From positions 186,001 to 250,000 of the forward strand of contig NZ_CP090836.1 of the NCBI RefSeq assembly GCF_021491915.1: a DNA stretch of 64,000 nucleotides, written 5' to 3'. This document shows, piece by piece, positions 29,681 through 46,792 of the stretch. The position numbers and the translations under genes are program-made. The number at the start of each line of letters is the position of its first letter. Positions within the stretch are counted from its first letter, which is position 1. The notes under the pieces are model-generated. The model did no database searches and was not told where the DNA came from. It saw only the letters and a program-made list of their open reading frames with translations. This DNA is from Paracoccus everestensis (GTDB taxonomy: Bacteria > Pseudomonadota > Alphaproteobacteria > Rhodobacterales > Rhodobacteraceae).

Positions 29681-30667
29681 ATGGCGCCCAATGTTCTGGT
29701 GACGGGGGGTGCGGGCTATATCGGCTCGCACGCCTGCAAGGCCCTGGCTGCGGCGGGGTATACTCCTGTCACGCTGGACAATCTGTCGACCGGCTGGCGC
29801 GATGCGGTCCAGTTCGGACCCTTCGTGCAGGCCGATCTGCTTGACCGCACAGCCTTGGATGCGGCCTTTGCCGAATACCGGCCCATCGCCGTGCTGCACT
29901 TCGCCGCCCTGAGCCAAGTGGGCGAGGCGATGGCGGAGCCGGGCAAATACTGGCGCAACAATGTCAGTGGATCGCTGAACCTGATCGAGGCCGCCATTGA
30001 CGCGGGCTGCCTGGATTTCGTCTTCAGCTCCACCTGCGCCACCTATGGCGACCGCGACGGAGAGGTTCTGGACGAGGACACCCCCCAGGCTCCGCTGAAC
30101 GCCTATGGGGCGTCCAAGCGCGCGATCGAGGATATGCTGGCCGATTTCGGTGCATCCCATGGGCTGCGCTCGGTGATCTTCCGCTATTTCAACGTGGCGG
30201 GCGCCGATCCTGACGGCGAGGTCGGCGAACATCACCGTCCGGAAACGCATCTGATCCCGCTGATCCTGGATGCGGTGGATGGCAAGCGTGCGGCCCTGAC
30301 CGTGCATGGGACCGATTACCCCACCCCGGACGGCACCTGCATCCGCGACTATGTCCATGTGATGGATTTGGTCGATGCCCATGTGAAAGGCCTGGAATGG
30401 CTGCGCGCTGGACGCGGCAGCCGGGTGTTCTGCTTGGGCACCGGATCGGGCTTTTCCGTGCGAGAGGTCGTGGACGCCACCCGCCATGTCACCAACCGCC
30501 CTGTGCCCATGGTCGATGGCCCGCGCAGGGGCGGGGACGCGGTCAAGCTGGTCTGCGGCAGCACTCGCGCCAAGGCGGAATTGGGCTGGCATCCCGGCCG
30601 GTCCACCATGCAGCAGATGATCGCCGATGCCTGGCGGTGGCACCAGAACGGCACCTATCAGGCGTGA
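29681..30667 (+). CDS. galE: UDP-glucose 4-epimerase
   Basis: GalE interconverts UDP-glucose and UDP-galactose with tightly bound NAD. The 328-aa extended SDR protein has GGAGYIGSH (8-16), the SSTCATYGD block, the catalytic pair YGASK, and RYFNVAGADPDGEVGE. Length is typical. The following glycosyltransferase begins within its stop codon (GTGA), tying it to glycan assembly. Confidence 0.94.
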   Translation: MAPNVLVTGGAGYIGSHACKALAAAGYTPVTLDNLSTGWRDAVQFGPFVQADLLDRTALDAAFAEYRPIAVLHFAALSQVGEAMAEPGKYWRNNVSGSLNLIEAAIDAGCLDFVFSSTCATYGDRDGEVLDEDTPQAPLNAYGASKRAIEDMLADFGASHGLRSVIFRYFNVAGADPDGEVGEHHRPETHLIPLILDAVDGKRAALTVHGTDYPTPDGTCIRDYVHVMDLVDAHVKGLEWLRAGRGSRVFCLGTGSGFSVREVVDATRHVTNRPVPMVDGPRRGGDAVKLVCGSTRAKAELGWHPGRSTMQQMIADAWRWHQNGTYQA

Positions 30668-31713
30668 CCGGCGACCGTGCCCCGGCGTACCGGCGGGCCT
30701 GGTCGGCCTGGCGCCAACGCTGGAAACGCCGGGAACTGCTGTGGCGCTGCCTGCGGGCGGGCCAGGATCTGGCCCCGCTGGCCGACCGCACGGCGGCGAT
30801 CCGGCCCGACAGCATCCTTTGCTTCGCAACCCTGCGAAACGAGATGCTGCGCCTGCCGGAATTCCTGGATCATTATCGCCGGCTGGGTGTCGGAAGCTTC
30901 CTGATCGTCGATAACGCCAGCACCGACGGGACCGGGGATTTCCTGCGTGGCCAGCCCGATGTCTCGTTGTGGCAGGCGCCGGGCAGCTACCGAAGCGCGC
31001 GTTTCGGGATGGACTGGCTGGGCGCGCTGCTGTTTCGCCATGGGCACGGCCATTGGTGCGTCACGGTCGATGCCGACGAACTGCTGATCTATCCCGAATG
31101 GGACCGCCATCCGTTGCGGCGCCTGACCGCCCATCTGGACGCCGCCGGTTGCCCGGGCATGGGGGCGATGATGCTGGATCTGTATCCGCGCGGTCCGCTG
31201 GGCCAGGCCGATGCCGGACCGGGGGCGCCCTTGACCGAACGCCTGCCCTGGTTCGATGCCTCCCCTTATCGGTGCCGGATGGTGCCGCCCAAACGCAACC
31301 GGATCCTGCATGGGGGCGTCCGCGAACGGGTCTTCTTTCCGGGCGATCCCGACCGTGGCCCGACGCTGAACAAGCTGCCCCTGCTGCGGTGGAACCGGCG
31401 ATACGTTTACGTCAATTCCACCCATTCGGCTTTGCCCCCCCGGCTGAACGACCATTACGACGGTCCCGGCGACCCCCGCCCGTCAGGGGTGCTGCTGCAC
31501 GGCAAGTTCCTGCCCGACAGCACCGCCCGCGCGTCCGAGGAACTGGTCCGAGGTCAGCATTTCATCGACCCCCAGGGCTATCGCGCTTATCACGGTGCAA
31601 TCGCCCAGGCGCCGGTCCTGTGGCACGAAGGATCGGTCCGATACCGGGATTGGCGGCAGCTGGTCGATCTGGGGCTGATGGGCGGGGGCGACTGGTTGTC
31701 ATCCAAAGGTTGA
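30664..31713 (+). CDS. Glycosyltransferase family 2-like protein (first of tandem pair)
   Basis: The 349-aa protein starts at a GTG overlapping the galE stop. It has the GT-A opening ILCFATLRNEMLRLPEFLDHY, IVDNASTDGT, and the DxD-like VDADELLIYP at about 140, matching the Glyco_tranf_2_4 group. A basic N-terminal segment (WRQRWKRRELLWR) precedes it. The C-terminus keeps HGKFLP and YHGAI with VRYRDWRQLVDLGL. The next gene is a clear paralogue. Donor and acceptor are unknown; the upstream galE suggests a UDP-hexose. Confidence 0.8.
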   Translation: MTGDRAPAYRRAWSAWRQRWKRRELLWRCLRAGQDLAPLADRTAAIRPDSILCFATLRNEMLRLPEFLDHYRRLGVGSFLIVDNASTDGTGDFLRGQPDVSLWQAPGSYRSARFGMDWLGALLFRHGHGHWCVTVDADELLIYPEWDRHPLRRLTAHLDAAGCPGMGAMMLDLYPRGPLGQADAGPGAPLTERLPWFDASPYRCRMVPPKRNRILHGGVRERVFFPGDPDRGPTLNKLPLLRWNRRYVYVNSTHSALPPRLNDHYDGPGDPRPSGVLLHGKFLPDSTARASEELVRGQHFIDPQGYRAYHGAIAQAPVLWHEGSVRYRDWRQLVDLGLMGGGDWLSSKG

Positions 31714-31805
31714 CTGCAGATTAACCATCTTGCCAAATGCGTGCATTCAACGCATTCGGGCATCATGACAATCAGGCGAAACGGTTTGGATCGGAGGGCG
31801 CGGCA

Positions 31806-32834
31806 ATGCGGGGCATAGGCGCGCATCCGATCGCCGCCCGCTTGCGCCGGAGGGTTGAACGCCAGCGCCTGATCCTGCGCGGGATCCGGCGTCGCGGTTC
31901 CCTGCGCTCCTTGGCTGATCGCACCAGGCAGATTGGGCAGGGTGATATCCTGTGCCTTGTGACTTTGCGCGACGAACGCTCGCGGCTGCCGTGGTTCCTG
32001 GATTATTACCGGGCCATGGGGGTGCGCCACTTCCTGATGGTGGACAACAACAGCGGGGACGGCAGCGGCGATTACCTGCGCGGCCAGCCGGACGTGTCCT
32101 TGTGGTGGACGGACGCCAGCTACAAGGGCGCGCGCTTTGGCATGGACTGGATGAACTGGCTGCTGCTGCGCCACGGCCGGGGGCATTGGTGCCTGACAGT
32201 CGATCCCGATGAATTCCTGGTTTATCCGCATATGGGCCATCGTCCCCTGGCGGCGCTGACCAGCTGGCTGGACGCGACCGGACGGCGGTCCTTTCCGGCG
32301 ATGCTGCTGGATATGTATCCCGAAGGCCCCATCGAGGATGCGATCTGCGCCGAGGGCGAGAACCCCTTCGACATCGCCTGCTGGTTCGACCCGGCCAATT
32401 ACTCGATCCAGAAGAACCCCCATTTCGGCAATCTGTGGATCCAGGGCGGGCCGCGCACGCGAGCGTTCTTCACCCACGATCCGCTGTCCGGGCCTGCCCT
32501 GAACAAGATCCCCCTGGTGAAATGGGACGCGCGATACGCCTATGTCAGTTCGACCCATATGCTGCTGCCGCGCGGGTTGAACCTGGTCTACGACGAAGAC
32601 GGCGGCGAACAGATTTCAGGCTGCCTGCTGCACGCCAAGTTCCTGTCGTCCTTTGCCGCCAAATCGGCCGAGGAACTGGACCGCAGGCAGCATTACGGGG
32701 GCAGCGGGGAATACCGCGCCTATCACGCGGGGCTGCACCGGGGCGTGCAACTGTGGTGCAGCGAATCGCGCCGGTACCGCGATTGGCAGCAGTTGGAGGA
32801 TCTGGGCCTGATTTCCCGGGGGAACTGGGCATGA
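31806..32834 (+). CDS. Glycosyltransferase family 2-like protein (second of tandem pair)
   Basis: The 342-aa paralogue of the preceding gene has the same block order: LCLVTLRDERSRLPWFLDYY, MVDNNSGDGSGDYLRGQPDVSLW, VDPDEFLVYP, FDPANY, NKIPLVKW, LHAKFLSSFA and RRYRDWQQLEDLGL. The ATG at 31806 is preceded by GGAGGG; an in-frame start at 31737 is weaker. Its stop overlaps the next start (ATGA). The pair likely arose by tandem duplication and may add two related sugars in sequence. Confidence 0.8.
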   Translation: MRGIGAHPIAARLRRRVERQRLILRGIRRRGSLRSLADRTRQIGQGDILCLVTLRDERSRLPWFLDYYRAMGVRHFLMVDNNSGDGSGDYLRGQPDVSLWWTDASYKGARFGMDWMNWLLLRHGRGHWCLTVDPDEFLVYPHMGHRPLAALTSWLDATGRRSFPAMLLDMYPEGPIEDAICAEGENPFDIACWFDPANYSIQKNPHFGNLWIQGGPRTRAFFTHDPLSGPALNKIPLVKWDARYAYVSSTHMLLPRGLNLVYDEDGGEQISGCLLHAKFLSSFAAKSAEELDRRQHYGGSGEYRAYHAGLHRGVQLWCSESRRYRDWQQLEDLGLISRGNWA

Positions 32835-34525
32835 AGGCGCCCGCGACCGTGCGGCTGGGCGTGGTGTTGCTGTGCCATGGCGATCTGGGCATGGCGGCGC
32901 GGCTGGCACGGATCTGGACGGATGGTGGGGCGCGGGTGGCAATCCATGTCGATGCCAAGGTGTCGGGCGCGCGGGCGGCCGGACTGCGCCAGGCATTGAA
33001 GGATTGCGACAGGGTCATCTTCAGCAAGCGCCATCGGTGTTCCTGGGGCCGCTTCAGCCTTGTGCGCGCCACCCAGGATGCGGCGGCGGAACTGCTGGCC
33101 CGCTTTCCCGACACGACCCATGTCTATCTTGCCTCAGGTGCCTGCCTGCCGCTGCGGCCGGTTGGCGAACTGGCCGCCTATCTGGCCGCCGATCCTGACC
33201 GCGACCATATCGAGAGCGTCAGCAGCCATGACGTGGGCTGGACCGTCGGCGGGCTGAACGAGGAACGATTCACCCTGTTCTTTCCCTTTGACTGGAAGCG
33301 GCACCGCTGGCTGTTCGACCGCTTCGTGACCTGGCAACGCAGGCGCGGCATTCGCCGACGGATGCCCGCCGGGCTGATCCCGCATCTGGGGTCGCAATGG
33401 TGGTGCCTGACGGCGCGCACCCTGCGCGCCATTCTGGACGATCCGCAACGGCCCGCCTTTGACCGATTTTTCCGGTTCACCTGGATTCCCGACGAAAGCT
33501 ATTTCCAGACTTTGGTGCGGCGCCATTCCACCAAGCTGGAAAGCTGGTCATTGACCATGGCCAAGTTCGATCACACCGGACGGCCTTATTCGCTTTATGA
33601 CGACCATATCGACATGCTGGTCGAATCACGCTGTTTCGTGGCACGCAAGGTCTGGCCGGGGGCATCGAGGCTGTTGTCGCATTTCCCGCTGCCCGACCAG
33701 GGCCAGCCCCAGGTCGATCCACCCCAGCCCGCGCGGATTTCGCGCATTATCAACCAGACGGTGCATCGCCGCGTGCTTGGCCGGCCGGGCCTGTATATGC
33801 AAAGCCGCTTTCCCCGCAAGGACGCCGAGAACGGCAAGACCTCGGCCCCTTATGCGGTGATCCAAGGCCTGTCGGACATCTTTCCGGGGTTCGAGGATTG
33901 GCTGCGCGGGCATCTGTCCTGCCAGGTCCACGGCCATCTGCTGGGACCGGAAGGGGTGGAATTCGCAGAGCGTGCCCGCATCGGTCCGGGTGCGATCTCG
34001 GCGGACCCGCTAATCCGCGACCGCGATCCGCAGGGGTTCCTGACATCCCTGATCCGCATCACCGACCGGATGCAGGCGTTCCAGTTCAGCCCGCGCGACA
34101 ATCAGGCGCTGAACTGGTTCATCGCCACCGATCCCAATGCCCATATGCTGGTCGTGTCCGGCGCATGGAAGCTGCCCCTGCTGCATTCGGGGATGCCCTT
34201 CGACGACGTGCGCCGGGTCTTTGCCCAGCTGCAGCGGACCGAGCTTGAGCAGCTGGAGGTGCTGAATTCCGTCTGGGTCCGCGCGCGCCTGCATCATCAC
34301 GACCTGGGCGAATTCTTGTTGAACCCCCGGCCGATCCTTCAGGATTTCCTGTTGCAGATCGACCCGCATTCCGCGCCCGTGACCATGCTGCCCGCGATGC
34401 GCGACCTGACGGGGCTGGACGGGATGCTGCGGCGGCTGCGCAACTCCGGCCTGCGCCCGCGCCTGACGGGCGAGGATCTGCCCCCCATCGAACTGCTGAC
34501 CACTGAAAGGGCGGCTGCCGAATGA
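32831..34525 (+). CDS. GT14-type (core-2/I-branching) glycosyltransferase with C-terminal DUF5928-like region
   Basis: The 564-aa protein's N-terminal half resembles beta-1,6-N-acetylglucosaminyltransferases and xylosyltransferases of the Branch family: VVLLCHGDLGMAARLARIW, VAIHVDAKVS, YLASGACLPLRP, GSQWWCLTARTLRAI and WIPDESYFQTLV. The C-terminal about 270 residues are unlike GT14 and match, by pattern, an extension (DUF5928) that I associate with Rhodobacteraceae homologues. Start and stop both overlap neighbours by four bases, so it is co-translated with the upstream glycosyltransferase and the sulfotransferase. Confidence 0.78.
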   Translation: MKAPATVRLGVVLLCHGDLGMAARLARIWTDGGARVAIHVDAKVSGARAAGLRQALKDCDRVIFSKRHRCSWGRFSLVRATQDAAAELLARFPDTTHVYLASGACLPLRPVGELAAYLAADPDRDHIESVSSHDVGWTVGGLNEERFTLFFPFDWKRHRWLFDRFVTWQRRRGIRRRMPAGLIPHLGSQWWCLTARTLRAILDDPQRPAFDRFFRFTWIPDESYFQTLVRRHSTKLESWSLTMAKFDHTGRPYSLYDDHIDMLVESRCFVARKVWPGASRLLSHFPLPDQGQPQVDPPQPARISRIINQTVHRRVLGRPGLYMQSRFPRKDAENGKTSAPYAVIQGLSDIFPGFEDWLRGHLSCQVHGHLLGPEGVEFAERARIGPGAISADPLIRDRDPQGFLTSLIRITDRMQAFQFSPRDNQALNWFIATDPNAHMLVVSGAWKLPLLHSGMPFDDVRRVFAQLQRTELEQLEVLNSVWVRARLHHHDLGEFLLNPRPILQDFLLQIDPHSAPVTMLPAMRDLTGLDGMLRRLRNSGLRPRLTGEDLPPIELLTTERAAAE

Positions 34526-35734
34526 CCCAGGGGTTCCGCAGCTTTGTCATCTTTGCCGGGATGCGCACCGGGTCCAACCTGCTGGAGGCGACCCTGAACG
34601 CCGTCAAGCGCGTCACCTGCTTTGGCGAGGCGTTCAATCCCTATATGATGGGCTGGCCCGGCAAGGACGAGATGCTGGGGATCACCCGCGCCGCGCGCGA
34701 GGCGGATCCCCTGTCCCTGCTGGCGAAGCTGACCGACAAGCCGGGGCATCTGCCGGGGTTCCGCTATTTCCACGACCACGATCCCCGCGTGCTGGAACCC
34801 ACCATCCAGGACCGGGGCTGCGCCAAGATCATCCTGACGCGCAATCCGCTGGACAGCTATGTCTCGACGCGGCTGGCCTGGGAAACGAACCAATGGAAGC
34901 TGAACGAGTCGGAAACGCCGATTCCGGCCCGCATCACTTATGACGGCGACGAATTCCGCCGGACCCTGTCCGAGGCCGAGGAGTTTCGCCGCCATGTCGT
35001 CAGCCGCTTGCAGGCGACGGGACAGACGGCGTTCCATCTGGGTTTCGACGATCTGCGCGACGGCGATGTGATCACGGGTCTGCTGCACTGGCTGGGCCGC
35101 ACCGATCTGGCGCGCGTGGAACCGGCCCGCGACCAGGTGCCCCAAAACCCGCAGGAACTGGCGCAGAAGGTCGCCAATTTCGACGCGATGCAGGCCGATC
35201 TGCGCGACATGGATCCGTTCCTGCTGCACCGCCTGCCCGTGTTCGAACCACGGCGCGGGCCTGCCGTGCCCAGTTTCCTGGGGGCGGGCGCGGGACGGGG
35301 CCTGCTGTTCATGCCGGTCAAGGGCGGGCCGGAACAGGCGATCCGGGATTGGCTGGACAGGCTGGGCCCGGTCGCGGACGGCTTTACCCAATCGACCCTG
35401 CGCCAATGGAAACGCGCCCGTTCCGGCCATCGCAGCTTTACGGTCCTGCGCCACCCCCTTTTGCGGGCATGGGAGGCCTTTGACCACCTCCTGGCTCGGG
35501 GCAATCCCGAACAGCGCGAGGTGCTGCGCCGTCTCCACCGCGTGGCCCTGCCGCCAGACGATGCGCTTGCCGCCCTGACGGGCGACGCGCGCATCGCCGT
35601 ATTCGCCGATTTCCTTGGATTCCTGCGGCGAAACCTGAATGGCCAGACATCGCTGCCCACCCATCCGACATGGGCCAGCCAGACCGAGGTTCTGTCGGGA
35701 TTTGCCCGTTTTGCCACCCCTGATACCAACGGCA

Positions 35735-36310
35735 TTATCCACTGACCTGCGCCCAATCGCGTGAGGTGATTGAAGCGACGCGTTCCGGCATTGCGAGGAG
35801 GGTGTTCCAGGCATCGCAGCAGACGTCGACAATGGCGTCGTAGCTGTCGAAGACCCGGTTCGCGAGGGTGTTCTGACGGAGGAACTGCCAGAGGTTCTCG
35901 ACCGGGTTCAGTTCCGGACTGTAAGGTGGCAGTGGCAGCAGGCTGATGTTGGGCGGGATGATGAGGTCTGTGGAGCTGTGCCAGCCGGCGCCATCGAGAA
36001 CAAGGAGCGCGTGTGCACCGGGCGATACCTGCCCGCTGATTTCGGCCAGGTGGGCGTTCATCGCCTCCGTGTTCGCGTAGGGCATGACGAGCGCCGCACC
36101 GATCCTGCGGGCCGGGCAGACCGCCCCGAAGATGTAGGCCCAGGCGTAGCGGCAGTCTTTTGGCGCCCGCGGGCGTGTGCCCTTTCTCGCCCACACGCGT
36201 GTCAATGTTCCCTGCTGGCCCACCCTGGCCTCATCTTGGAACCAAATCTCCAAGGGCTTTCCTTGCGCTTCGTTAGGCAAGGCTGCGCGCGCCAGTTCGG
36301 CAAAGTTTTT
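35735..36310 (-). CDS. IS630-family transposase, C-terminal frame (DDE domain)
   Basis: This frame begins at the A run (reading AAA-AAC-TTT-GCC) and holds the catalytic DDE residues: Asp in IWFQDEARVGQQG, Asp in LLVLDGAGWH and Glu in PPYSPELNPVENLW. It has no credible start of its own. Joining it to the upstream frame needs a +1 shift (equal to losing one A of the run), by ribosomal frameshifting or polymerase slippage. All three catalytic residues are intact, so the element may be active. Confidence 0.82.
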   Translation of the reverse strand, partial: KNFAELARAALPNEAQGKPLEIWFQDEARVGQQGTLTRVWARKGTRPRAPKDCRYAWAYIFGAVCPARRIGAALVMPYANTEAMNAHLAEISGQVSPGAHALLVLDGAGWHSSTDLIIPPNISLLPLPPYSPELNPVENLWQFLRQNTLANRVFDSYDAIVDVCCDAWNTLLAMPERVASITSRDWAQVSG

Positions 36311-36794
36311 TATATACCGCTTGCGCTTCGCCATCGGCCTGCGGATGGCGCGGCCGGACTGAGAGACGCGCAAAGCCGAGCCGGTGAAGGATCGCGCTCA
36401 TGGTCCTCTCCGCCACGCGAATGCCAAACCGCTGGTCAACCACGTTGCAGAGGTCAATCCGACGCCAACGCACGACCTTATCCGTCGACGGGTCAGGCCC
36501 CGTTTCGACGATCACGGCAAGTTCGCGCATCTGCTCGGCGCTGAGCCGCGCTGGCCGCCCGGAAAGCGGCCGATCGCCAAGGCCGGCCAGCCCTTCGGCA
36601 TTGTAACGATGAACCCAGTCACGCAGCGTCTGCCGATCCATACCGCAGCTTTGTGCCGCTTCCGTCCGGCTTCGCCCGTCAAGCACATGCGCCAGCGCAA
36701 GCATCCGGCGCGACGCTCGCGCGTCCTTCACTTGAGCCGCCTCCCGCCGCAGATCCGATGCTGAAAGGTCCGTGCGTGTGATGCCCACTGCCAT
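36273..36794 (-). CDS. IS630-family transposase, N-terminal frame (helix-turn-helix)
   Basis: The start ATG at 36794 follows GGAGGAGG. The product contains the N-terminal DNA-binding part: RRMLALAHVLDGRSRTEAAQSCGMDRQTLRDWVHRYN, with the second basic helix region and WRRIDLCNVVDQRFGIRVAERTMSAILHRLGF. The frame runs past a six-A run at 36311-36306 and soon stops. The rest of the transposase lies in another frame, so a shift at that run is needed for a full-length enzyme. Confidence 0.85.
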   Translation of the reverse strand: MAVGITRTDLSASDLRREAAQVKDARASRRMLALAHVLDGRSRTEAAQSCGMDRQTLRDWVHRYNAEGLAGLGDRPLSGRPARLSAEQMRELAVIVETGPDPSTDKVVRWRRIDLCNVVDQRFGIRVAERTMSAILHRLGFARLSVRPRHPQADGEAQAVYKKLCRTGARSLA

Positions 36795-37078
36795 CCTGAT
36801 CCTCCTCCGCCTTGCAAGGGAGTGAATCAGAGGTCGGCCGCAAAGCAAACCATCTTCAGAGTCGATGGTTCATGCCGCTGGTATGACATGGTGGTCAGGG
36901 AAGACCGCCTGACCGAGGATCTGGACCATTTGTCCCGCATGGCAGGCATTGCCGATGCAAAGCTGGAAACGGTTGCGCCTGCCCCCGTGCCGGACGCGCT
37001 GCGCGACAAGGCCCTGATTGACGCCGCGCAGGCTGCATACCTGCGCGACTATGTCACTTTCGGCTTTGACCCGATGCC

Positions 37079-38467
37079 CTAGCCCTTCAGCAGCGCGGCC
37101 AGTTCCGCCTGCTTTTCGCGCACCAGATCCGCATCGCCATCGGATTCCAGGTTCAGCCGCACCACCGGCTCGGTGTTGGACTTGCGCAGGTTGAAGCGCC
37201 AGTTTCCGAAATCCAGAGACACGCCGTCCAGGTCGTCGCGGCTGTCGGCGTGGGGTTCGTAGTTCTCGATCAGCCGGGCAATCGCCGCGTCGGGGTCGTC
37301 GATGTGATAGTTCGTCTCACCGGATGACGGGTAAAGTCGCATCCGCTCCTCCAGCAGTTCGGCCAGCGTCTTGCCCTTGCGCGACAGCAGCTCGATCATC
37401 AGCAGCCAGGGGATCATGCCGCTGTCGCAGTAATAGAAGTCGCGGAAATAATGATGCGCCGACATCTCTCCGCCATAGATCGCGCCCACGTCGCGCATCT
37501 TGCGCTTGATGAAGGCGTGGCCGGTCTTGCTGACGACCGCCTGCCCGCCCGCTTCCTCGATCATGGCGCGGGTGTTCATGATGACGCGGGGGTCGTGGAC
37601 GATCTTTTCGCCGGGTGATTTTTCCAGGAAGGCCGCGCCCAGCAGGCCGACGATATATTCGCCGGGAATGAAGCGGCCGTTTTCGTCGAAAAAGAAGCAG
37701 CGGTCGAAATCGCCGTCCCAGGCCACGCCCAGATCGGCCTTTTCCGCCTTCATCCGCTCGACCGTGGGGGGTTGGTTCTCGTCCAGAAGCGGATTGGGGA
37801 TTCCATTCGGAAAGCTGGAATCGACTTCATGGTGCATCCGCACGAAGGTCAGCGGTGCGCCGCGCCGTTCCAGTTCATCGGCAATGGCGTCAAAGGTCGG
37901 CCCGGCAGTGCCGTTCCCGGCGTTGACCAGGATCTTCATCGGCTTCAAGGCCTGCACATCCACGAAGTCCGCCATGGCCTTGGCATAATCCGCCCGGGCA
38001 TGGCTGAAATCGGTGACGCTGCCCTTGGTTGCGGGGGCAAAGCTGCCGGATGTCGCCAATTCGATGATCGGCGGCAGTTCGGTCGCCGGATCCAGCGGCG
38101 CGGAGCCCCGGCCCACGATCTTCATGCCGTTGTAGTTGATCGGGTTGTGGGACGCCGTGACCTCGATCCCGCCATCGGTGTCGTGGAAGCCAGTGTGGAA
38201 ATAGACCTCCTCGGTCCCGGCCAGGCCCAGGTCCAGCACGTCTGCCCCGCCGTCGGTCAAACCATCAATCAGCGCCGCCGCCAGTTCGGGCGAGGTGGCG
38301 CGGCTGTCGCGGCCCACCACGACGCGTTTCGCCTGGCGGACCTGCGCAAAGGCGCGCCCGATGCGGTAGGCCACGTCGGCGTCCAGGTTCTTGCCCAATT
38401 CCCCCCGCACGTCGTAGGCTTTGAAACAGGTGATCTCTCGGGGTCCGAGGTTGCTGCGGTCGGTCAT
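37079..38467 (-). CDS. Phosphomannomutase/phosphoglucomutase
   Basis: The 462-aa alpha-D-phosphohexomutase interconverts hexose 6- and 1-phosphates, feeding GDP-mannose or UDP-glucose synthesis. It has the start FKAYDVRGELG, the phospho-serine loop EVTASHNPINYNGMK (Ser of TASHNP), the metal-binding DGDFDR, GGEMSAHHYFRD and the C-terminal phosphate-binding RKSNTEPVVRLN. GEMSAHHYF is typical of the ManB/CpsG group. It converges with the sulfotransferase remnant (3-4 base overlap of ends), closing the glycan region. Confidence 0.92.
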   Translation of the reverse strand: MTDRSNLGPREITCFKAYDVRGELGKNLDADVAYRIGRAFAQVRQAKRVVVGRDSRATSPELAAALIDGLTDGGADVLDLGLAGTEEVYFHTGFHDTDGGIEVTASHNPINYNGMKIVGRGSAPLDPATELPPIIELATSGSFAPATKGSVTDFSHARADYAKAMADFVDVQALKPMKILVNAGNGTAGPTFDAIADELERRGAPLTFVRMHHEVDSSFPNGIPNPLLDENQPPTVERMKAEKADLGVAWDGDFDRCFFFDENGRFIPGEYIVGLLGAAFLEKSPGEKIVHDPRVIMNTRAMIEEAGGQAVVSKTGHAFIKRKMRDVGAIYGGEMSAHHYFRDFYYCDSGMIPWLLMIELLSRKGKTLAELLEERMRLYPSSGETNYHIDDPDAAIARLIENYEPHADSRDDLDGVSLDFGNWRFNLRKSNTEPVVRLNLESDGDADLVREKQAELAALLKG

Positions 38468-44836: not shown

Positions 44837-45736
44837 ATGCTGACCGTTGCCGCCCTTTATCACTTTACACGCTTTCCCGATCCCGCCGCACTCAAGGGGC
44901 CGCTGGCCTCGGTCGCCTGCGCGAACGGCGTGCGCGGCACGCTGCTGCTGGCGGCCGAAGGGATCAACGGCACCATCGCCGGGACGCGGGGCGGCATCGA
45001 CGCGGTGCTGGCCCATATCCGTGCCCTGCCCGGATGCGGGGCGCTTTCGTGGAAGGAAAGCACGGCGGAGGCGATGCCCTTTGGCAAGATGAAGGTGCGG
45101 TTGAAACGCGAGATCGTGTCGATGGGCCAGCCCGACGTCGATCCCCGTGCCGCGGTGGGCCATTATGTCGAGCCTGCTGCCTGGAACGCCCTGATCAGCG
45201 CGCCCGATGTGGCCGTGATCGACACCCGCAACGATTACGAGGTTGCCATCGGCACCTTTGCGGGGGCCGTGGATCCAGGCACGCGCAGCTTTCGCGACTT
45301 TCCCGCCTGGTGGCAGGCCAATGCGGACCGCTTTGCAGGCAAGCGCGTGGCGATGTTCTGCACCGGCGGCATCCGCTGCGAGAAGTCGACGAACTATTTG
45401 CTGTCGCAGGGCGTCACCGACGTGTTCCACCTGAAGGGGGGAATCCTGAAATATCTGGAAGACGTGCCCGAAGGCGACAGCCTGTGGCAGGGCGATTGCT
45501 TTGTTTTTGATCAACGGGTCAGCCTGATCCATGGCCTGCAACAAGGCCGCCATGTCCTTTGCCACGCCTGCCGCCGGCCACTTGCCCCCGAGGATCGGGC
45601 GCGGCCCGAATACGAGGACGGCGTCTGCTGCCACCGCTGCGTGGATGAATATGACGACGCCGACCGGGAACGGTTCCGGGAACGGCAGCGTCAGTTCCGT
45701 CTGGCCGAGGATCGGAAAACCTTGGATCCCGCTTAG
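44837..45736 (+). CDS. trhO: tRNA uridine(34) hydroxylase (rhodanese-like)
   Basis: TrhO makes 5-hydroxyuridine at the wobble base of some tRNAs. The 299-aa protein has an N-terminal acylphosphatase-like domain ([17 protein letters not shown]) and a rhodanese domain with catalytic Cys at about 175 in [13 protein letters not shown]. The C-terminal cysteine-rich tail is CHACRRPL...CCHRCVDE. The stop TAG is formed by the TA at the edge of an insertion sequence plus its first base. The uninterrupted flank also reads TAG, so the protein is unchanged. Confidence 0.9.
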
Positions 45737-45819
45737 AGCGTATTGCGGCTTTCCCGATTCAGGATACCCCTGTGGCTTGATCTGTGATTCCCTGCCTGCA
45801 TGACAGGTGGAGGGATGAT

Positions 45820-46200
45820 ATGGGCAGACCGCATCCTATGGCGCTCCGAGAGCGCGTTGTGGCGTTTGTGGAGGAAGGGAACTCGCACCGTTCAGCCGCT
45901 GCGCGGTTCCGGGTTTCGGTGAAGTTCGTCAACGACATGGTGATCCTGAAGCGCGAGACGGGCGGGTTAGCTCCGCGTGCCCAAGGCCATGGTGGTGGTC
46001 ATGGCAAATTGGTTGGTGTGGGGGACTGGATCACCGCGCGCATGAAGGCGAAGCCCGATCTGACGCTGAACGACCTGGTCGGCGAACTTGCGGATCATCA
46101 CGGCATCGCCATTCACCGTGTCTCGGTTTGGCGGTTTTTGCGCGGTCTCGGGCTGACACACAAAAAAAGACCTGCAAGCCCTCGAGCAGAAGCGGCCTGA
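45820..46200 (+). CDS. IS630-family transposase, N-terminal frame
   Basis: The frame starts at ATG 45820 after GGTGGAGGG and codes for 126 residues with a helix-turn-helix region: MALRERVVAFVEEGNSHRSAAARFRVSVKFVND. A second part, LTLNDLVGELADHHGIAIHRVSVWRFLRGLGL, follows. It reads through seven A residues (46162-46168) and ends in an unrelated tail. A +1 shift there leads into the catalytic frame. Confidence 0.85.
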   Translation: MGRPHPMALRERVVAFVEEGNSHRSAAARFRVSVKFVNDMVILKRETGGLAPRAQGHGGGHGKLVGVGDWITARMKAKPDLTLNDLVGELADHHGIAIHRVSVWRFLRGLGLTHKKRPASPRAEAA

Positions 46201-46777
46201 GATCCGGCAGGCACGCCATATCTGGATCACACGACGCCAACCGTTCATGCGCAGCGCGTTGACGCGCCTTGGTTTCATCGACGAGACGTCGCTGAAGACG
46301 AACATGGCCAAGACCACCGGATGGTCTCCAAAAGGCGCGCGCCTTGTCGACCATGCGCCCTTCGGCCACTGGAACACCCAGACCTTCATCGCCGCCCTGC
46401 GCCATGACCGGCTGGATGCGCCCTGGGTGATCGACGGTGCCATGAACCGCGAACTGTTCGAGCTCTATGTCGAAACCCAACTGGCCCCGACACTGCGACC
46501 CGGCGATGTGATCATTCTGGATAACCTGTCATCGCACAAGAGTCCCAAGGCAGCGGCGACTATGAGCGCCGTTGGCGCGTGGTTCTTGTTCTTGCCTCCC
46601 TACAGTCCGGATCTGAACCCGATCGAGATGGCCTTCGCAAAGCTCAAGGCCCTGATCCGGAGAGCCGCCGCGCGAACCTACGAGGCTCTCTGGCACGCCG
46701 TCGGGCAGGTCTGCGATCTTTTCACCGATGAGGAATGCTACAATTTCTTCAAAGCCGCCGGATATGAAACCGATTAG
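46163..46777 (+). CDS. IS630-family transposase, C-terminal frame (DDE domain)
   Basis: From the A run this frame reads KKDLQALEQKRPEIRQAR and on into the catalytic core. The three acidic residues are present: Asp in GFIDETSLKTNM, Asp in VIILDNLSSHKS and Glu in LPPYSPDLNPIEMAFAKLK. The first usable Met is far downstream (46247), so expression must depend on a shift from the upstream frame. The element looks intact. Confidence 0.85.
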   Translation, partial: KKDLQALEQKRPEIRQARHIWITRRQPFMRSALTRLGFIDETSLKTNMAKTTGWSPKGARLVDHAPFGHWNTQTFIAALRHDRLDAPWVIDGAMNRELFELYVETQLAPTLRPGDVIILDNLSSHKSPKAAATMSAVGAWFLFLPPYSPDLNPIEMAFAKLKALIRRAAARTYEALWHAVGQVCDLFTDEECYNFFKAAGYETD

Positions 46778-46792
46778 ACGCAACGCGCTCTA

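Follow-up and report, generated by a model that had tools for sequence, protein, structure and literature searches.

What was the sulfotransferase-like gene that lies in two pieces in the Paracoccus everestensis genome, what element split it, and what has the strain lost? The gene is found in a 64,000 nt stretch (contig NZ_CP090836.1, positions 186,001 to 250,000), referred to here as the window, whose own numbering is used throughout. Taken as a whole, including the function ascribed to the gene, we consider it highly probable that a tandem sulfotransferase-fold gene conserved across the family was recently broken by an IS630-related insertion sequence (IS), which added 3 bp (TGA). This explanation is built on the established limits of the IS and its 3 bp duplication, on intact orthologues, on a pairing with a Branch/DUF5927 gene and on a structural model in which domain 1 folds like Stf0.

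Reconstruction of the interrupted gene

As it stands, the sulfotransferase-like open reading frame (ORF) starts at an ATG at 34522 and has 407 codons, of which the last six, supplied by the end of the IS, encode TNGIIH before a stop (Table 1). Removal of one copy of the flanking TGA yields a single frame of 465 codons that ends with the TAG at 37080–37082. The original prediction had claimed this exact join, and the orthologues bear it out. Of 29 orthologue loci handled, the 13 in the right orientation were read across the break site, the other 16, in the opposite orientation, being left out, and all 13 continue through the motif PD[ML]xxRE with no added residues. R405 and E406, both beyond the break, are present in 120/120 of the best homologues listed. 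Because the 13 orthologues read through without an extra residue, the joined frame is ancestral on sequence grounds, and the insertion added a net 1163 bp (1160 + 3), where a TA duplication would predict 1158.

The insertion cuts off 64 of the 465 residues. It looks recent because the reading frame of the 3′ remnant is still open to 37080 and the six full copies of the IS in the genome share 99.9–100% identity with the window copy. Every detail of the original observation that was tested held, and its interpretation is partly supported, the loss of activity being plausible. A functional split into two proteins was rejected, because what remains on the 3′ side is short and lies in a different frame from the 5′ part.

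Table 1. Positions of the interrupted gene, the IS and the partner gene in the window
Feature	Position	Strand	Basis
Upstream partner, Branch (core-2/I-branching) + DUF5927	32702..34525	+	ORF, Pfam; start 32702 chosen within longer ORF 32435–34525
Truncated tandem sulfotransferase-like gene	34522..35745	+	ORF and orthologues; final 6 residues and stop supplied by IS end
TGA, left copy of 3 bp target duplication	35721..35723	.	Join and orthologue reading
IS630-related IS, 1160 bp, transposase on − strand	35724..36883	-	Sequence; NCBIfam; 5 further full genome copies
Transposase ORF2, DDE_3; NCBIfam IS630 equivalog	35735..36373	-	160 bits, cut-off 100
Transposase ORF1, helix-turn-helix (HTH); IS630 model	36273..36848	-	93.7 bits, under cut-off 100
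Six-A run inside ORF1/ORF2 overlap; possible frameshift/transcriptional slippage site	36306..36311	-	Sequence; role inferred
TGA, right copy of 3 bp target duplication	36884..36886	.	Join and orthologue reading
Stranded 3′ remnant of sulfotransferase gene (domain 2 last strand + helices)	36887..37082	+	Sequence, model

The insertion sequence and its 3 bp footprint

The IS begins with TACCAACGGCAT... at the left end and finishes with ...ATGCCGCTGGTA at the right, with inverted repeats TACCAACGGCAT / TACCAGCGGCAT. Members of the IS630 family, the bacterial side of the IS630-Tc1-mariner group, have terminal inverted repeats and a length of about 1–1.4 kb, and the element agrees with the family in both, as well as in having an HTH and a DDE_3 domain encoded in two overlapping frames. 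ORF2 exceeds the cut-off of the curated IS630 model NF033545, while ORF1 alone falls short of it. The family's usual 2 bp TA target duplication was not found; all six full copies in the genome have a 3 bp TNA duplication and empty sites concur. Because of this departure the element is classed, from its sequence, as an IS630-related, TNA-duplicating variant. Fusion of ORF1 and ORF2 is likely to occur at the six-A run, via a +1 (or −2) shift or transcriptional slippage. A seventh, incomplete copy (L007/L008, genome C1:1804929–1807049) is in two parts that are separated by approximately 1.1 kb and overlap by 12 bases, as if it had been interrupted by another element landing in it.

The trimers flanking the six full copies are TAA, TGA, TAA, TCA, TAA and TAA, with left and right identical in every case, where two random trimers of the window would be equal with a probability of 0.022. 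Concordant flanks were also found for a copy in P. kondratievae (TAA) and for a split copy in P. aerius (TTA). At one site (L004) the IS sits in a different multicopy sequence; the filled site reads TGA-IS-TGA, and a single TGA is found in 5/5 uninterrupted copies in the same genome. At a further site (L001, genome C1:1565026–1566185) the flank of the IS appears to be a small gene's TAA stop codon, which was duplicated and hence kept; the target position is TCA or TTA (the stop complement) in 18 of 19 related loci. A gain of 3 bp at TNA is thus demonstrated, with bases copied by the stagger and bases fixed by the target being indistinguishable from the T and A alone. A preference of the element for A or T as the middle base is suggested because TAA and TTA together make up 239 of the 1858 TNA trimers in the window, yet four of the six trimers are TAA.

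Copies with a single readable end, and diverged relatives, were examined in the same way. TNA was found in seven of the former (L007, L049, L055, L061, L066, L068 and L076). A scan of 86 loci, requiring intact TACC/GGTA ends, produced 10 candidates, of which two were the same IS (L046 and L193) and seven were relatives. The remaining candidate (L169) had unrelated flanks and was taken as chance. Equal TNA trimers flank four of the relatives (L051, L167, L176 and L209), and the other three (L067, L194 and L200) have TNA at both sides with different middle bases. Two further relatives have TCA (L009) and TGA (L172), each at the one end read. Some loci weigh against a TNA rule. Two of the copies with one readable end depart from it, L047/L090 with CTA and L072 with TTT, and a relative that the scan missed through its requirement for intact ends (L164), read separately, has GGA on the left and TGA on the right. 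The sequences indicate that the rule is strict in young copies and looser in old ones, whose footprints may have been blurred through mutation or recombination.

Additional copies were also sought elsewhere. A search of the plasmid collection found only partial matches, in two Sinorhizobium records. A pattern scan of genome contigs found 91 stretches, 80 of them listed; nine were read and the five that were useful are from Paracoccus. Most of these stretches were taken as chance matches because the source organisms are many and unrelated.

Comparison with elements that duplicate TA

A second IS630-family element in the window (45736–46790, 1055 bp, six genome copies; NCBIfam 128.2 bits on the ORF at 46157–46774) served as a control. 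It has TA at 45734–45735 and 46791–46792, and TA is found on both sides in 6/6 copies while the 3 bp flanks are unequal in 6/6. A third element, picked up through its remote similarity to ORF2 (27% identity), has two copies with common TATA-type ends.

IS630-type elements of Photorhabdus duplicate TA (PMC6267812). ISHsp2 of Halomonas, an IS630 member which its authors call divergent, duplicates TTAA, whereas related elements duplicate TA (PMC3606827). Like the IS found here, it is IS630-type, has two ORFs and duplicates a target other than TA, but it duplicates 4 bp rather than a 3 bp TNA; the comparison covers duplication and ORF layout. The eukaryotic Fot elements of the pogo superfamily, from the same wider transposon group, duplicate TAA in 341 of 385 cases (PMC7386202). 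Their transposases are eukaryotic pogo transposases, and here the comparison covers the duplication. No TNA duplication by an IS630-family element was found in the literature searched, which was covered mostly by listings and did not extend to ISfinder entries, and a search for IS630 in a study of the Paracoccus mobilome (PMC3281130) found no mention of it.

We think it likely that a subgroup of IS630-type elements in the Alphaproteobacteria cuts TNA, favouring TAA and TTA, alongside TA-cutting IS630 elements in the same cell. Judging by the footprint, the transposase would cut with a 3 nt stagger in place of the 2 nt TA stagger usual for IS630. Our confidence in the subgroup is slightly lowered because of two footprint exceptions among the diverged copies.

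Conservation and domains of the sulfotransferase-like protein

Uninterrupted orthologues in other Paracoccus genomes, which the original prediction had proposed as a check, were found. A search with the first 399 residues gave a match in 122 of 125 genomes of the genus, and the 13 junctions described above are intact. With a full-length orthologue as query, 244 of 295 genomes of the family had a match, at least three of them weak (G179, G197 and G301); the matches listed from other genera share 44–53% identity across nearly the full length. Both counts include the strain's own genome. A protein search found 4762 proteins at E ≤ 0.001, and the best 120 of the 4762 are 447–469 aa long. The names given to these homologues run from hypothetical protein to nodulation protein NodH, lipopolysaccharide (LPS) sulfotransferase NodH and sulfotransferase family 2 domain-containing protein. 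No study of the tandem sulfotransferase, or of its pair with Branch/DUF5927, was found in the literature searched by listings.

Both halves of the protein had been predicted to be sulfotransferases, with a structure prediction proposed to look for two folds that bind 3′-phosphoadenosine 5′-phosphosulfate (PAPS). This holds for domain 1, the model of which has an Stf0-like, and hence sulfotransferase, fold. Its PAPS motifs RTGSN, R107 and S115, which we take to be the 5′ phosphosulfate loop and the 3′ phosphate motif, are found in 120/120 genus rows and 28/29 family-search rows (the 29th is gapped) and are unbroken in the window protein. For domain 2, the complete set of PAPS-binding residues was not found, and the data weakly support a sulfotransferase-like domain with degenerate motifs. 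In a by-eye alignment, from which its PAPS-binding positions were assigned, position 267 is R or K in 102/120 genus and 25/29 family rows and R310 is present in 119/120 and 29/29. Position 270 is Pro in 107/120 and 23/29 and position 318 is variable, where the usual residues are presumably Thr/Ser and Ser, respectively.

Pfam and NCBIfam scans gave no name for the gene, and in three orthologues the best scores were below the Pfam gathering cut-offs for Sulfotransfer_3 (20.6 vs 27) and Sulfotransfer_2 (16.6 vs 22). Of 64 family members, 41 do match Sulfotransfer_2 (PF03567) with E ≤ 0.01, the lowest value being 1.7e-7; the match falls within domain 2 (residues 294–426) in the one member from which the position was taken, and some homologues carry a precomputed PF03567 annotation. 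The Pro at 270 and the lack of a fixed residue at 318 set domain 2 apart from that family. When the complete model was used in fold searches, the matches lay chiefly in domain 1; with Foldseek it gave five matches with E < 0.001, all to tyrosylprotein sulfotransferases with a TM-score of approximately 0.25. Domain 2 was therefore modelled separately. As a sequence query against the PDB, domain 2 by itself found only two poly(A) polymerase sequences (E 1.1). The lack of a strong fold match for domain 2 does not count against a sulfotransferase fold. In Stf0 (1tex) and LPS sulfotransferase NodH (9vki) the matched chains are single domains of 239–264 residues, whereas the protein described here carries a fused second domain that is sulfotransferase-like.

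Alternative explanations

A canonical IS630 element at 35726–36881 with a TA duplication, the flanking TGA pair being coincidental, is barely credible. NCBIfam calls the transposase IS630, TA is present at both inner edges and related elements duplicate TA (PMC3606827, PMC6267812), but empty sites of the form TNATATNA would be required. The empty sites read already refute this, as the TATGA-type extra bases needed are missing from 13/13 orthologues and from 5/5 empty copies at L004, and the TA reading was rejected on these sites; the equal trimers at 6/6 full copies, set against the chance value given above, also oppose it. That the insertion is an assembly artefact is very improbable. A multicopy, near-identical IS is a typical place for a misjoin, but the genome is a single contig and each of the six full copies has its own flanks with a matching 3 bp duplication, which is beyond what a misjoin creates.

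It is unlikely, though less so than either of these, that the truncated 407 aa protein is still a working sulfotransferase, with domain 2 accessory and the insertion near neutral. The unbroken motifs of domain 1, the degenerate PAPS positions of domain 2 in genus and family rows, the restriction of the loss to 64/465 residues and a convergent next gene would all be compatible with this. Against it, the lost part is rich in residues conserved in at least 90% of 64 rows (A447, A448, Y452, R454, D455, F459, G460 and F461), the model places the final strand of the sheet of domain 2 in that part, and R405 and E406 are present in 120/120 genus rows.

Gene neighbourhood and probable consequences of the insertion

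The sulfotransferase gene is the last in a run of glycosyltransferase-type genes, preceded by an epimerase gene, two glycosyltransferase-type ORFs and the Branch + DUF5927 gene, the stop of which overlaps its start (ATGA). Branch/DUF5927 is directly upstream, within 200 nt, in 30/30 of the best genus-search loci and 29/30 of the best family-search loci, with the remaining one at 228 nt; the strain's own genome is in both sets. Three genomes of the genus do not have the sulfotransferase. In two of them, G090 and G108 (99% complete), Branch/DUF5927 is likewise without a match, but the gene that comes next in the window has a phosphomannomutase-like homologue; in G086 (71% complete) the partner gene is present at a contig end. 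The adjacency of the genes and their co-absence from G090 and G108 point to a pair working on one glycan. A polar effect on the next gene is not expected because it is convergent to the sulfotransferase gene.

The intact enzyme would move sulfate from PAPS to a glycan built with the Branch/DUF5927 partner, a role for which the neighbourhood and the co-absence are the grounds. Catalysis would fall to domain 1, and domain 2, sulfotransferase-like but degenerate, would serve folding or acceptor binding. The strain's product, which lacks the final strand of domain 2 and the helices at its end, is probably inactive and would leave the glycan unsulfated; both the activity and the sulfation of the glycan have thus plausibly been lost. 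The interrupted gene amounts to a naturally occurring mutant of a pair seemingly kept by most of the family genomes sampled, so that its role in glycan sulfation is testable.

Disruption of a gene is in itself ordinary, and the 3 bp footprint is the less expected result for an IS630 element. If TNA is the target, it includes stop codons, so some insertions would spare the host gene by duplicating its stop. A TNA element beside a TA-duplicating relative in one genome offers a clean comparison for the determinants of the stagger in IS630-type transposases.

The two glycosyltransferase-type ORFs further upstream (30667–31710 and 31737–32831) share 52% identity over 309 residues and are probably a tandem duplication; the second, the only one scanned, matches Glyco_tranf_2_4.
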